A stretch of DNA of 64,000 nucleotides from Nitrospirota bacterium (GTDB lineage: Bacteria; UBA2233). Each line of letters starts with the position of its first letter. The first letter of the stretch is position 1. The stretch spans positions 194,235 through 258,234 of the forward strand of contig WOZJ01000050.1 in assembly GCA_011620345.1 (NCBI GenBank). The letters run 5' to 3'. The notes under the pieces are model-generated. The model searched no databases. It was not told the origin of the DNA and worked only from the letters and a program-made list of their open reading frames with translations. Positions 36,002 to 39,903 of the stretch are shown here, piece after piece. Made by a program: the position numbers and the translations under genes.

Positions 36002-36394
36002 ATGGAAATTCTAGAAACTTGCCTCTATGCAGAGGACCTAGTGGAGGTTCGAAGGTTCTACGAAGGGATCCTTGGGCTTAAATGCCTTCAGTTCAAGTTG
36101 GGCCAGTTCGCCTTCTTTAGGGCTGCAAGAGGCGTCCTTCTCGTCTTTAACCCGGCCTATTCGCTAAACCTCCAAAAACTCCCACCTCATGGGGCGGCCG
36201 GGTCCATACACGTTGCCTTTCGAGCGGACGAACAAGAAATCCCTAAATTGAAGAAACGCTTCCAGGAGGGCGGCTTTGTAGTCTATGACGCACTTTGGTG
36301 GAACGGACAATCGAGCTTTTACGTGTACGACCCCGCGGGTAACCTGATCGAATTTGCCCCTGCTGGTATCTGGGAGCTTCCTAAAGAGGCCTAA
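36002..36394 (+). CDS. VOC-superfamily (glyoxalase/bleomycin-resistance fold) protein
   Basis: 130 residues from the ATG at 36002, which follows a GGGGA ribosome binding site. Two beta-alpha-beta-beta-beta modules are visible: MEILETCLYAEDLVEVRRFY with GILGLKC, and IHVAFRADEQEIPKLKKRF with the closing YVYDPAGNLIEFAP. The candidate metal ligands are His in SIHVAF and Glu in LIEF. The substrate cannot be inferred. It lacks the typical methylmalonyl-CoA epimerase opening (IDHIGIAV-like), so I do not call it that. Its end overlaps the znuB end by 4 bases. Confidence 0.85.
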   Translation: MEILETCLYAEDLVEVRRFYEGILGLKCLQFKLGQFAFFRAARGVLLVFNPAYSLNLQKLPPHGAAGSIHVAFRADEQEIPKLKKRFQEGGFVVYDALWWNGQSSFYVYDPAGNLIEFAPAGIWELPKEA

Positions 36395-37212
36395 GCCCTA
36401 CCCGCCCTTGCCTTGAATCCGATGGTGACAAGGTATACGGCTCCAGCTAGGACCGCAATACTCGAACCTGTAGGCAAATCCAAGAAATAGCTCGCAATGA
36501 TCCCGGCCCACGAAAGGAGCAGGCAAAGAACGCCTGCGACGATCATGGCCTTCCAGAGTTTCATCGGGAATACGCAGGCAATAGCGGCCGGGAGCGTAAG
36601 CAGCGCGATCACGAGGATGAGGCCTACAAGCCGAAGCATGGCAACGGTCGCAAGCGCCACTAACAACAGCATGCACAAAGAAAGTATCTCGGTTTTGATG
36701 TTTCGTACCTTGGCAAACGACTCATCGAAGCACAATGCAAGGATTTCCCTGTAAAAGGGTGCAACTACACCAAGGACGGCCATATCTAAAAAGACGGTCA
36801 AGAAAAGGTCCGTATCGGAAACCAGCAGGATGTTCCCGAACAGGTAACTCATGGGATCTGCATACCCAGGTGTCTTCGAGAGAAAAAGGAGGCCAATCGC
36901 CATTCCCACGGCCCAGATCCCTCCGATGACCGTATCCTCGCGCTGCTGAAAGCGAAGGCTTACCCAAGAAATGCCAAGCGCGGATACCAAGGCGGCAAGA
37001 ATAGCACCAGGAAGGGGCCCGCTCCAGGGAATGCCAAGCGCACGTTCGCAAAATAAGCCAATCCCGATACCGCCCAATACGCTGTGGGAGATCGCTCCTG
37101 CGGCAGAACTGATACGCCGTACAACAACGAGCGTCCCAAGGATACCGAACGAAACGCTCGAAAGGAGCGTGATCAAAAAGGCGTTGGCTAAAATACCGAG
37201 CCCTAGATTCAT
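36391..37212 (-). CDS. znuB: Zinc/manganese-type ABC transporter permease
   Basis: ABC-3 family membrane permease, 273 residues and about eight to nine helices. Typical features are VRRISSAAGAISHSVLGGIGIGL, a cytoplasmic SFGILGTLVVVRR segment near the start, and the conserved region LLLVALATVAMLRLVGLILVIALLTLPAA. It is 6 bases downstream of the ATPase gene. Family members transport zinc, manganese or iron; zinc is inferred from the regulator and binding protein. Confidence 0.92.
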   Translation of the reverse strand: MNLGLGILANAFLITLLSSVSFGILGTLVVVRRISSAAGAISHSVLGGIGIGLFCERALGIPWSGPLPGAILAALVSALGISWVSLRFQQREDTVIGGIWAVGMAIGLLFLSKTPGYADPMSYLFGNILLVSDTDLFLTVFLDMAVLGVVAPFYREILALCFDESFAKVRNIKTEILSLCMLLLVALATVAMLRLVGLILVIALLTLPAAIACVFPMKLWKAMIVAGVLCLLLSWAGIIASYFLDLPTGSSIAVLAGAVYLVTIGFKARAGRA

Positions 37213-37218
37213 TCGAGC

Positions 37219-37965
37219 CTATCTTTCTTCATTGCCTAAGACAAGGTCATGCCGGACGAGCCGCATTGGCTCGTTGTAAAGGTCATGCAGCGAGAGGGAG
37301 TCGAGCTCAGAGGTTGGATGCTCAACGACTCTTCGGTTGACGCAAAACACGCGGTCCACATGCTTCGAGACAAAGCTCAGGTCGTGTGTAACGAGAAGCA
37401 AGGCAATTTTGCCCTTGAGTTCGGCCAAAAATTCGGCCAAAAGCTTGCCCCCTTCCGGGTCAACGTTCGCCGTCGGTTCGTCTAAAAGGAGCACCTCCGG
37501 GTCACAGGCAAGGGCGCGCGCAAGCAACGTCCTTTGCCTTTGGCCTCCAGAGAGCTCACCAAAAAAACGATCTTTCATCGGCTCAAGCCCAAGGAATGCT
37601 AAGACCTCTTCTGCCTTTTTAAGGTCAGACCTTGAGTAGCGCCAGCCCCCTCCCCCACCAAGCCTGCCCATGAGCACGACCTCTTTTAGGGTAACGGGAA
37701 CTTGAAGGTCAGATTGGATCGCTTGGGGCATGTATCCGGCCCTCATTCTCGCTTGTTCCGGACGTTGCCCAAGCAGAGATACTCTACCGCTTTGCGGCAT
37801 TGTAAGGCCTAAAATAATCTTAAGAAGCGTGGTTTTCCCTCCCCCGTTCGGGCCCAAAATGCAGACATATTCCCCTCGCGCAACGAGGAGGCTTACCTCT
37901 TCTAGGACGGGCCAGGAGGCATACGCAAAGTTTACCCCTTCCAAACATACGGCCTCATGTCCCAC
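37219..37965 (-). CDS. znuC: Zinc/manganese-type ABC transporter ATP-binding protein
   Basis: 248 residues with Walker A GPNGGGKTTLLK, signature LSGGQRQRTLLARAL, Walker B VLLLDEPTANVD and the switch histidine in LLVTHDLSFV. GTG start after AGGAG; the first bases overlap the end of znuA by 11. The C terminus is short and carries no added sensory domain. It energises the znuB permease for metal import across the inner membrane. Confidence 0.94.
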   Translation of the reverse strand: MGHEAVCLEGVNFAYASWPVLEEVSLLVARGEYVCILGPNGGGKTTLLKIILGLTMPQSGRVSLLGQRPEQARMRAGYMPQAIQSDLQVPVTLKEVVLMGRLGGGGGWRYSRSDLKKAEEVLAFLGLEPMKDRFFGELSGGQRQRTLLARALACDPEVLLLDEPTANVDPEGGKLLAEFLAELKGKIALLLVTHDLSFVSKHVDRVFCVNRRVVEHPTSELDSLSLHDLYNEPMRLVRHDLVLGNEER

Positions 37966-38830
37966 GGCAATCTCCTAGTGCCCCGGAAAGAATCCTTCCA
38001 AGCTTCCGGATGGTATCGAACACGTCGTAGTCCAAGTCGTTCACTACGGCGAGCTTGGCATCCAACGCTTGGGCGACGAGCCTAGCTTCCCTAAAATCAA
38101 ACTGGGGTTGAACAATCACGATGCGGACATGCTCTTTTTTTGCTTGGACAACCACCGCCTGAAGCCTCCTTGGCGTGGGCTCCTTCCCCTCTTCTTCGAT
38201 GTAAAGCTGGCGCAGCCCAAAGTTTGCGGCAAAATGGCCAAACGCCGGGTGGTGCACAAGGAAGGCCCTTCCTTTGTAGGGCGCAAGCATGCTTTTAACT
38301 TCGCCCTCGAGGGATTCGGCCTCCGTCAGAAAAAGGGAGAGTCTCTTATAAACCTCTTGCTCCTTGCTTGGAAACATCTGGATCAGGGCCGATGCAATGG
38401 CCTTGGCGATCCCCTTCAAGCGCTGCGGCGAAAGCCAAACGTGGGGGTCTTGGCCCTCTTGGATGTCTTGGGCAAGGTCTACAACCTTGAGGTTGGGATA
38501 GCGTTGCTGCAGGCGTTTTGCCAATGCCCTCTCAAAAGGGAGCCCTACGATAAAGAAGGCCCTAGCCTTTCCTAGCGCCAAGACTTGCCTTGGTGTCGGC
38601 TCGAACGTGTGGGGATCCTTGGAAGCACCCGCAATCGTCCTTACGCGCACGAAGGATCCGCCAAGGCGTTCGGCCAGAAAGGCGATCGGCGGAATGCCGG
38701 CATACAGCTCGACAACGTCGCTTGCATGCGAGCTTCGCACCAAAATGGATGAGGCTCCTAAGGTCCAACAGCCCACCATTAGGAGCGCGACGAAATCAAG
38801 CCTTCGCAGAACAAACCGGAAACGAGCCAT
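37955..38830 (-). CDS. znuA: Zinc/manganese-type periplasmic solute-binding protein
   Basis: Start at the ATG at 38830 with an AAGGAG ribosome binding site. 291 residues with an N-terminal membrane/signal segment (to about residue 36), then the cluster 9 (TroA/ZnuA) fold. The expected metal ligands are seen in order: His74 in DPHTFEPTP, His130 in DPHVWLSP, His194 in HHPAFGHFA and an acidic residue in NDLDYDV (265-269). The flexible His-rich loop found in many zinc-specific ZnuA proteins is missing. It is first in the transporter operon and overlaps the upstream regulator gene by 35 bases. Confidence 0.92.
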   Translation of the reverse strand: MARFRFVLRRLDFVALLMVGCWTLGASSILVRSSHASDVVELYAGIPPIAFLAERLGGSFVRVRTIAGASKDPHTFEPTPRQVLALGKARAFFIVGLPFERALAKRLQQRYPNLKVVDLAQDIQEGQDPHVWLSPQRLKGIAKAIASALIQMFPSKEQEVYKRLSLFLTEAESLEGEVKSMLAPYKGRAFLVHHPAFGHFAANFGLRQLYIEEEGKEPTPRRLQAVVVQAKKEHVRIVIVQPQFDFREARLVAQALDAKLAVVNDLDYDVFDTIRKLGRILSGALGDCRGT

Positions 38831-39056
38831 GGCACTCCTTGCATTCTTTGATCGCATGGTTTTTTAAGAATTCCTTCCAATGCAGCTTGAGATGAGGCGA
38901 CAGGACGCCCGTTCCGTTACACAAGGGGCATATCCCGGAAAGGTACGCAAGGAGCGCCGTGCGTATGAATTCCGAACGGTTGGGAATACGCTCAAGCGCC
39001 TTTGCCAGGTCTTCGTCTACCTTGAAGGTGATAATTTCCTGCTTCTTCGTCGGCAT
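38796..39056 (-). CDS. Ribbon-helix-helix regulator with C-terminal cysteine/histidine metal site
   Basis: 86 residues. Residues 7-40 (EIITFKVDEDLAKAL, RIPNRSEFIRTALLAYL) form a CopG-type ribbon-helix-helix DNA-binding domain. The C-terminal half has Cys43-x2-Cys46, His55, His59, His67, Cys72-x2-Cys75, His76 and Cys82, a likely metal site. It is the first gene before znuABC, overlaps znuA by 35 bases, and its own upstream region holds two TATTACA half-sites at 10-bp spacing. I infer a zinc (or related metal) responsive repressor that controls its own operon. No described system with this name is known to me. Confidence 0.85.
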   Translation of the reverse strand: MPTKKQEIITFKVDEDLAKALERIPNRSEFIRTALLAYLSGICPLCNGTGVLSPHLKLHWKEFLKNHAIKECKECHGSFPVCSAKA

Positions 39057-39072
39057 TTATCGAACCCCTTAT

Positions 39073-39089
39073 TATTACAGCGTATTACA
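39073..39089. promoter_or_regulatory. Tandem operator half-sites upstream of the RHH-znuABC operon
   Basis: Two direct copies of TATTACA (39073-39079 and 39083-39089), spaced exactly one helical turn apart, 17-33 bases before the ATG of the regulator. Tandem half-sites of this spacing are typical for ribbon-helix-helix repressors, and the AT-rich repeat overlaps any -10 box. Confidence 0.55.
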
Positions 39090-39174
39090 AGCGGGCCCGA
39101 TCCATCAAGGCCTTTTGAGAAACGAACGGTACAATAAGCCTATCATCGTACGATGTACCAGGTGTTTGGAGGCG

Positions 39175-39903
39175 ATGAGAGTAAGGATAGGGACTTCGGG
39201 TTTTTACTATCCCCACTGGAGAGGGGTTTTTTATCCGCGCGAGCTCCATCGGGCCCACTGGCTTCAGTATTACCAAGAAAGGTTCGATACGCTGGAAATT
39301 AACTCCACGTTCTACCAATTGCCAAAGCCCGAAACCTTCCTAAAATGGAAGCAAAGCGTGAGGCCTGGCTTCATGTTCGCCCTCAAGGCTAGCCGGCTGA
39401 TCACCCATCTCAAGCGGTTAAAGGATGCCGAAGGCACGCTTGCGCTCTTCTTGAATAGGGCAGAGATTTTAGGAGATCTGCTTGGTCCCGTCCTCTACCA
39501 ACTTCCTCCTTCGTTTGAGCTCGACATCGGACGCCTGAGTGCATTCTTGGCGCTTCTTCCTGAGTGCTTATGCCATGCGTTTGAGTTTCGTCACCCGAGC
39601 TGGTTTATCAATGATGTTCGAAGCCTCCTCATCCGACAGGGCGTTTCGTTCTGCATCGCGGATGGGCCGGATGCACACCAGAGTCCGCAATGGATTACTT
39701 CGGAAACTGTCTACATCCGTTTCCACGGGCCGGCATGGCAGCACCAGGCGCAGTACCCCATAGAGCAACTTGCAGAATGGGCCGCAAGAATCGATGGATA
39801 TCTTAAGGAAGGGCTGCACGTTTTCGCGTTTTTCAATAACGACGCTCATGGGTTTGCCTTAAAGAACGCCGAACAGCTCAAGGGTCTGCTCGGCGTTCTT
39901 TAA
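39175..39903 (+). CDS. DUF72 family protein (YecE-like)
   Basis: Start at the ATG at 39175 behind GGAGG. 242 residues of a TIM-barrel family: RIGTSGFYYPHWRGVFYP at the N terminus, YQERFDTLEINSTFYQLP, VRPGFMFALKASRLITHLKRL, LYQLPPSFELD, FEFRHPSW and VYIRFHGP. All are DUF72 signatures. The catalytic function of the family is unestablished. It points away from the zinc operon and may use the same intergenic region. An inverted repeat covers its stop codon. Confidence 0.93.
   Translation: MRVRIGTSGFYYPHWRGVFYPRELHRAHWLQYYQERFDTLEINSTFYQLPKPETFLKWKQSVRPGFMFALKASRLITHLKRLKDAEGTLALFLNRAEILGDLLGPVLYQLPPSFELDIGRLSAFLALLPECLCHAFEFRHPSWFINDVRSLLIRQGVSFCIADGPDAHQSPQWITSETVYIRFHGPAWQHQAQYPIEQLAEWAARIDGYLKEGLHVFAFFNNDAHGFALKNAEQLKGLLGVL
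39861..39901. terminator. Bidirectional terminator overlapping the DUF72 stop codon
   Basis: 12-base arms AAAGAACGCCGA (39861-39872) and TCGGCGTTCTTT (39890-39901) with an inner CAG/CTG pairing. The arms end in A- and T-runs on both strands, so it can serve DUF72 from the left and, further away, the HPr operon from the right. Confidence 0.55.

Follow-up and report, generated by a model that had tools for sequence, protein, structure and literature searches.

A small ribbon-helix-helix (RHH) protein with a Cys/His-rich tail very probably represses, in response to zinc, the znuACB operon to which its own gene belongs and, in some genomes, zinc-uptake genes that are unlinked to it. It is encoded in the window, a 64 kb stretch of a Nitrospirota genome, and comparison with related loci shows that the RHH domain and the Cys/His tail are conserved, that a conserved two-box operator lies across the promoter, and that the targets are zinc-uptake genes. 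Zinc binding and zinc-dependent repression are inferred. Control of bacterial zinc uptake is ascribed to Zur, or to AdcR in streptococci (PMC6103462), and regulators of the Fur, MarR, MerR and ArsR families are listed in a review of zinc (PMC6103462), while a review of nickel presents NikR as the sole metal-regulated RHH protein (PMC7055735). In a comparative study from 2004, the znuABC genes of several delta-proteobacteria had neither Zur nor Zur boxes to go with them; D. psychrophila, G. metallireducens and Desulfuromonas are named there as lacking Zur, and the authors put forward either no regulation or “another regulatory mechanism” (PMC545781).

The regulator is the 86 aa product of a minus-strand ORF (38796..39056), MPTKKQEIITFKVDEDLAKALERIPNRSEFIRTALLAYLSGICPLCNGTGVLSPHLKLHWKEFLKNHAIKECKECHGSFPVCSAKA, and the family is represented by 54 non-redundant loci including the window. 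Its RHH DNA-binding domain occupies residues 9-39 (38940..39032, minus strand), which match Pfam RHH_1 (PF01402) at 23.4 bits, above the gathering score of 20.5. Two AF2-predicted helices fall at the expected place (15-22 and 27-39), and CopG-type chains are the best structural matches, with a Z of only about 3 (2.8 for residues 5-50 against CopG in VIA-align). The AF2 model of the whole protein has a pLDDT of 79 and a pTM of 0.43; neither this model nor that of the tail has a significant Foldseek match (best E about 1), and a phmmer search of solved structures with the single window protein sequence returned nothing. The regulator as a whole is not covered above cut-off by any family in Pfam or NCBIfam. 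A match to PF01475 (Fur family) is absent, so the protein is not Zur or Fur, and the C-terminal nickel-binding and tetramerisation domain of NikR has no Pfam or NCBIfam match among 34 members, the window protein ending at 86 aa. The regulator is an RHH protein distinct from NikR, and it would resemble Zur in action without being Zur, with the zinc response itself inferred. Two weaker family assignments were rejected: the aCcr1 family cell-cycle regulator (NF053762) reaches 33.3 bits against a curated cut-off of 60 and covers the RHH part only, and anti-TRAP matches the zinc motif only, at 12.3 against 32 bits for PF15777 and 14.8 against 65 bits for NF058604.

The rest of the protein, residues 40-86 (38796..38939, minus strand), is a metal-binding tail predicted from conservation and AF2, containing CPLCNGTG, H59, H67, C72-x2-C75 and C82. 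The full set of Cys and His residues in the window tail comprises C43-x2-C46, H55, H59, H67, C72-x2-C75, H76 and C82. C43, P44, C46, G48, G50, F63, H67, C72, C75 and C82 are invariant across 49 aligned members, at least 90% of which also keep H59; one relative, L078, lacks C75. Modelled alone by AF2 (pLDDT 89.7), the tail forms a knuckle, a helix and a beta-hairpin, with C72 and C75 in the hairpin loop. This predicted fold is compatible with a zinc-ribbon-like or treble-clef-like domain, a possibility for which no solved structure gives a significant match (Z 2.1 in VIA-align, which is low). In sequence profiles the CPxCNGTG knuckle connects to the anti-TRAP and DnaJ zinc modules (3e-4 for anti-TRAP). 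Zinc binding by the tail and a zinc-dependent change of DNA affinity remain inferences, with no binding, metal or expression data behind them.

Downstream of the regulator gene follow znuA (37955..38857), encoding a zinc-type periplasmic binding protein (Pfam ZnuA, 1.5e-50), znuC (37219..37965), encoding the ABC ATPase (Pfam/NCBIfam), and znuB (36391..37212), encoding the ABC-3 permease (Pfam ABC-3, 6e-60). All are on the minus strand, and the genes of the operon overlap head to tail or nearly so. The third metal ligand of ZnuA, His203 in the window, is His in 42/42 aligned operon-linked ZnuA proteins. His at this position characterizes zinc-type ZnuA structures and Glu the manganese-type PsaA. 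His-rich loops are present in several ZnuA, and the best NCBIfam matches for the binding protein, the ATPase and the permease are to the zinc system AztABC, yet below cut-off. A divergent DUF72 gene (window 38959-39903, plus strand) shares the intergenic region with the operator.

The initial annotation had described an 86-residue protein with a CopG-type domain and a Cys/His-rich tail, and this held, given the ORF and the RHH_1 match above cut-off. It counted two CxxC units and three histidines in the tail; the CxxC units stand and the histidines stand in part, the actual number being four, and it missed a fifth conserved cysteine, C82, which belongs to the conserved ligand set. The placement of the regulator as the first gene before the znuABC transporter genes was also borne out, since ZnuA, the ABC ATPase and the ABC-3 permease are confirmed by Pfam. 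Its 35-base overlap between regulator and znuA is correct if znuA begins at the second Met (38830), and becomes 62 bases for the longest ORF, from 38857.

Related loci came from two sources. A contig scan of genomes yielded 40 loci, 38 of them true relatives; the two others, L041 (UvrA) and L042 (an RNase E/G-like frame), identified by eye, were dropped as false matches through the CPLCNGTG motif. Profile searching detected the regulator in 21 of 297 Desulfobacterota genomes; 15 of these were treated as new, and the first-scan relatives, these 15 and the window make up the 54 non-redundant loci. All were gathered by similarity to the window protein, and not all are independent. They span several phyla, and carriers include Desulfosediminicola flagellatus (complete genome) and Desulfopila aestuarii, a species with a named type strain; the regulator phylogeny is too weakly supported to separate horizontal transfer from an old origin. 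Homologues of znuA, znuC and/or znuB lie directly downstream on the same strand in 49/54 loci; in L027, L007 and L033, for which blast searches with the window proteins gave only partial results, the znu genes were checked by ORF and Pfam. The five loci without them are L025, where the contig ends right after the gene, L011, L014, L039 and L040.

Two groups among these exceptions have features of their own. In L011 (556-1173) and L014 (717-1331), a membrane protein of about 205 aa, without a Pfam family and 55% identical between the two, follows the RHH gene and operator where znuACB would otherwise stand, and in L014 it is followed by a broken znuB remnant (1340-1490). This protein is a possible candidate for an alternative zinc transporter. 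L039 and L040 belong to a divergent subfamily. Among Planctomycetota the regulator is matched in 16/294 genomes, about half of these matches being to this longer, divergent subfamily, for which the nearby DNA examined holds neither znu genes nor operator. The longer planctomycete RHH proteins (L039, L040, L087-L094) carry additional CxxC units and have no znu genes or operator nearby. On one contig of G049 (C87; L110 and L111), three RHH paralogues have just the first CxxC unit; Fur-family and znuC/znuB-like genes lie nearby.

The operator is the second conserved element. The pattern GTAWTAC-N3-GTAWTAC, with at least 12/14 positions matched, occurs within 200 nt before the start codon in 52/54 loci, and the box separation is 3 bp in 52/54, placing the boxes 10 bp apart. 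In the 37 operator-bearing loci that were shuffled, the score was reached 0-1 times in 200. Counting without a prior pattern gives the same answer, GTAATAC/GTATTAC being the most frequent upstream 7-mer (50/54 regions against 1.8 expected). The core GTAWTA is nearly invariant, at 1.9-2.0 bits for most columns, with A or T about equally frequent at the W of box 1, and boxes are found in either orientation because GTAWTAC is near-palindromic. Near-palindromic half-sites would imply one RHH dimer per box, the two being separated by one helical turn (10 bp). In the window, box 1 is GTAATAC (39082..39088, minus strand) and box 2 is GTAATAA (39072..39078, minus strand), the latter with one mismatch to GTAWTAC. 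The site as a whole (39072-39088) therefore has one mismatch to the family pattern; it is the sole match with two or fewer mismatches in the 64 kb window (0.10 expected) and the sole match with one or none in the whole genome. The TATTACA repeats reported at first reading are indeed present 10 bp apart (39073-39079 and 39083-39089), and the comparison corrects the half-site to the near-palindrome GTAWTAC.

The position of the boxes points to repression. TTGAC occurs within 50 nt upstream in 40/54 loci where 2.4 are expected, its commonest distance from box 1 being 9-12 nt. At that distance the operator falls within the promoter spacer and box 2 overlies the -10 element, with the -10 assignment inferred. 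Operator placement across the promoter is the geometry expected of a repressor, again an inference from sequence comparison. The promoter in the window itself departs from the consensus: a consensus promoter scan found nothing in the window stretch around the weak candidate -35 element TTGATG (39103..39108, minus strand), which is inferred from position only and is conserved in the sister genome G001. In that genome box 2 is degenerate (TTATTAA) though the regulator is 92% identical, so the window genus may rely mainly on box 1.

Does the operator follow the regulator across genomes? Among the 297 Desulfobacterota genomes, a perfect operator is present in 13/21 with the regulator and in 8/276 without (Fisher p=1.9e-12), whereas a reversed-pattern control gives 0/21 and 10/276. 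Unlinked perfect sites follow the same trend (4/21 against 8/276, p=0.006). Sites with one mismatch in whole genomes are mostly at chance level outside the RHH locus, and only perfect unlinked sites were interpreted. Five regulator-bearing genomes have a perfect operator away from the regulator gene. The RHH operons of G049 and G155 contain znuC and znuB but lack znuA, and in both genomes the perfect operator directly precedes an unlinked znuA. In G225, G107 and G249 the gene behind the operator encodes a small His-rich protein, and a TonB-dependent receptor comes next; several bacteria have a TonB receptor under Zur control as well (PMC6103462). All identified unlinked targets thus fit control of zinc uptake in trans, on comparative evidence only.

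The neighbors of these sites merit description. Beside the unlinked znuA in the two unrelated genomes (L101:1-1207 and L053:1795-3015) is a permease with a Cys/His-rich loop, which by eye we take to be YraQ/COG0701-like and which could have a zinc-related function. The small His/Cys-rich protein upstream of the TonB-dependent receptor (L098:2063-2500, L099:1994-2401, L100:2391-2780) is 129-145 aa long and has no Pfam family; together with the receptor it could form an outer-membrane zinc uptake module. Perfect sites in the 8/276 genomes without the regulator mostly lack a zinc context. Two of these sites (L105:2512-3110 and L106:1919-2517, in G177 and G115, which have no zinc RHH protein) place a perfect GTATTAC-N3-GTAWTAC 20-36 bp before a different RHH protein and then a ParE toxin. 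The RHH antitoxin may use the same GTAWTAC box, and the box alone is therefore not zinc-specific. G313, in which no RHH zinc protein is matched at E 1e-12, has a perfect box 67 bp before a DsbD_2-type membrane protein (L103:2557-3268).

A regulator other than Zur is called for in the window genome. No Fur-family protein was found in this genome (G000, 97% complete) or in the sister genome, hence no Zur there, and the annotated claim that control differs from the classical Zur type held. As to MntR control, with which the annotation also drew a contrast, one DtxR/MntR-type protein is encoded in each of the two genomes, so that a further layer of regulation cannot be ruled out. Fur-family proteins occur in 12/16 carrier genomes checked, so that absence of Fur is no general rule and Zur may coexist with the regulator elsewhere.

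These observations can be assembled into a model. When zinc is sufficient, Zn(II) would be held by C43, C46, C72 and C75, at a structural or first site, and H59, H67 and C82 would hold a second Zn(II), likely the sensing site. Zinc would fold the tail and thereby let two RHH dimers bind next to each other, each occupying one of the two near-palindromic GTAWTAC boxes at a distance of one helical turn, and so block RNA polymerase. When zinc is low, the tail would lose its zinc, the dimers would stop binding together, and the uptake genes would be made. The initial prediction of autoregulation by bound metal is mostly supported; that the tail binds metal, and in which direction the response to zinc runs, is still inferred. 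It would have been refuted by homologues not associated with metal transporters, a test that was passed, 49/54 lying with ZnuA-type transporters and 52/54 with the operator.

Could the same repressor sense a metal other than zinc? The ZnuA and ABC-3 families also carry Mn and Fe, low-scoring NCBIfam matches to the binding protein include MntC and SloC, and TonB receptors import other metals too, so manganese, nickel, cobalt or iron might be proposed. This is unlikely in view of the His third ligand in all 42 aligned ZnuA and the His-rich loops of several, a Cys-rich tail that suits Zn and not Mn, and the AztABC zinc system as best NCBIfam match, though below cut-off. It is likewise improbable that tail zinc is only structural and the regulator a plain autorepressor or a redox- or thiol-responsive one. 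Cys4 zinc knuckles of the DnaJ/anti-TRAP type, weakly matched here, are often structural, and cysteines can sense oxidants. However, the targets are zinc-uptake genes wherever identified, and H59, H67 and C82 are conserved beyond the four Cys, enough for a second site. Least likely of all is that the znu operon is mainly under Zur or a DtxR/MntR-type protein, with the RHH protein an accessory. The DtxR-type protein of G000 and G001 and the Fur-family proteins of many other carriers speak for this possibility; the lack of any Fur-family protein in G000 and G001, and the tracking of the RHH gene by the operator (p=1.9e-12), speak against it.

The zinc-responsive RHH repressor favored here has partial counterparts among known systems. 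Like NikR, it combines an RHH DNA-binding domain with a predicted C-terminal metal site and would repress an uptake operon, and the NikR half-box GTGTTAC of delta-proteobacteria (PMC545781) resembles GTATTAC. NikR differs in its C-terminal domain, its metal ligands, its nickel instead of zinc targets and its half-sites, which are 13/14 bp apart in delta-proteobacteria (PMC545781) as against 3 bp in the zinc RHH family. In the manner of Zur, of the Fur family, the regulator would repress znuABC, unlinked znuA and a TonB receptor gene under plentiful zinc, but Zur has an unrelated fold and operator. AdcR, of the MarR family, is likewise a non-Fur repressor of zinc import; it has a winged-helix MarR fold, unlike the RHH regulator, and the Pfam scan shows no sequence relation between the two. 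CopG/ParD-type repressors have the RHH fold predicted here, and they bind neighboring boxes cooperatively and regulate their own genes, as is inferred for the zinc family, but they have no metal tail and serve in plasmid copy control or as part of toxin-antitoxin pairs. The anti-TRAP and DnaJ CxxCxGxG modules share the CPxCNGTG zinc-knuckle motif but are without an RHH domain, and the partner of anti-TRAP is the TRAP protein instead of DNA.

No report of the box, of an RHH protein in zinc uptake or of such a regulator in RegPrecise was found in the open-access literature searched; subscription papers could hold one. Within that limit, the regulator likely represents a previously unnamed family, a metalloregulator in kind. 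A bolder reading, also likely, would make this family the first among RHH repressors to sense zinc and, after NikR, the second to be regulated by a metal; it would add a structural class of zinc-responsive regulator to the Fur, MarR, MerR and ArsR types. It would then supply the zinc-uptake regulator that is missing from parts of several phyla, its regulon comprising znuACB, unlinked znuA and a TonB receptor. The family offers a concrete candidate for the control of Zur-less znuABC, and its defined operator and named ligands make the question directly testable. If this proves true, the regulator takes the place of the textbook Zur before the zinc-import genes of many unrelated bacteria.
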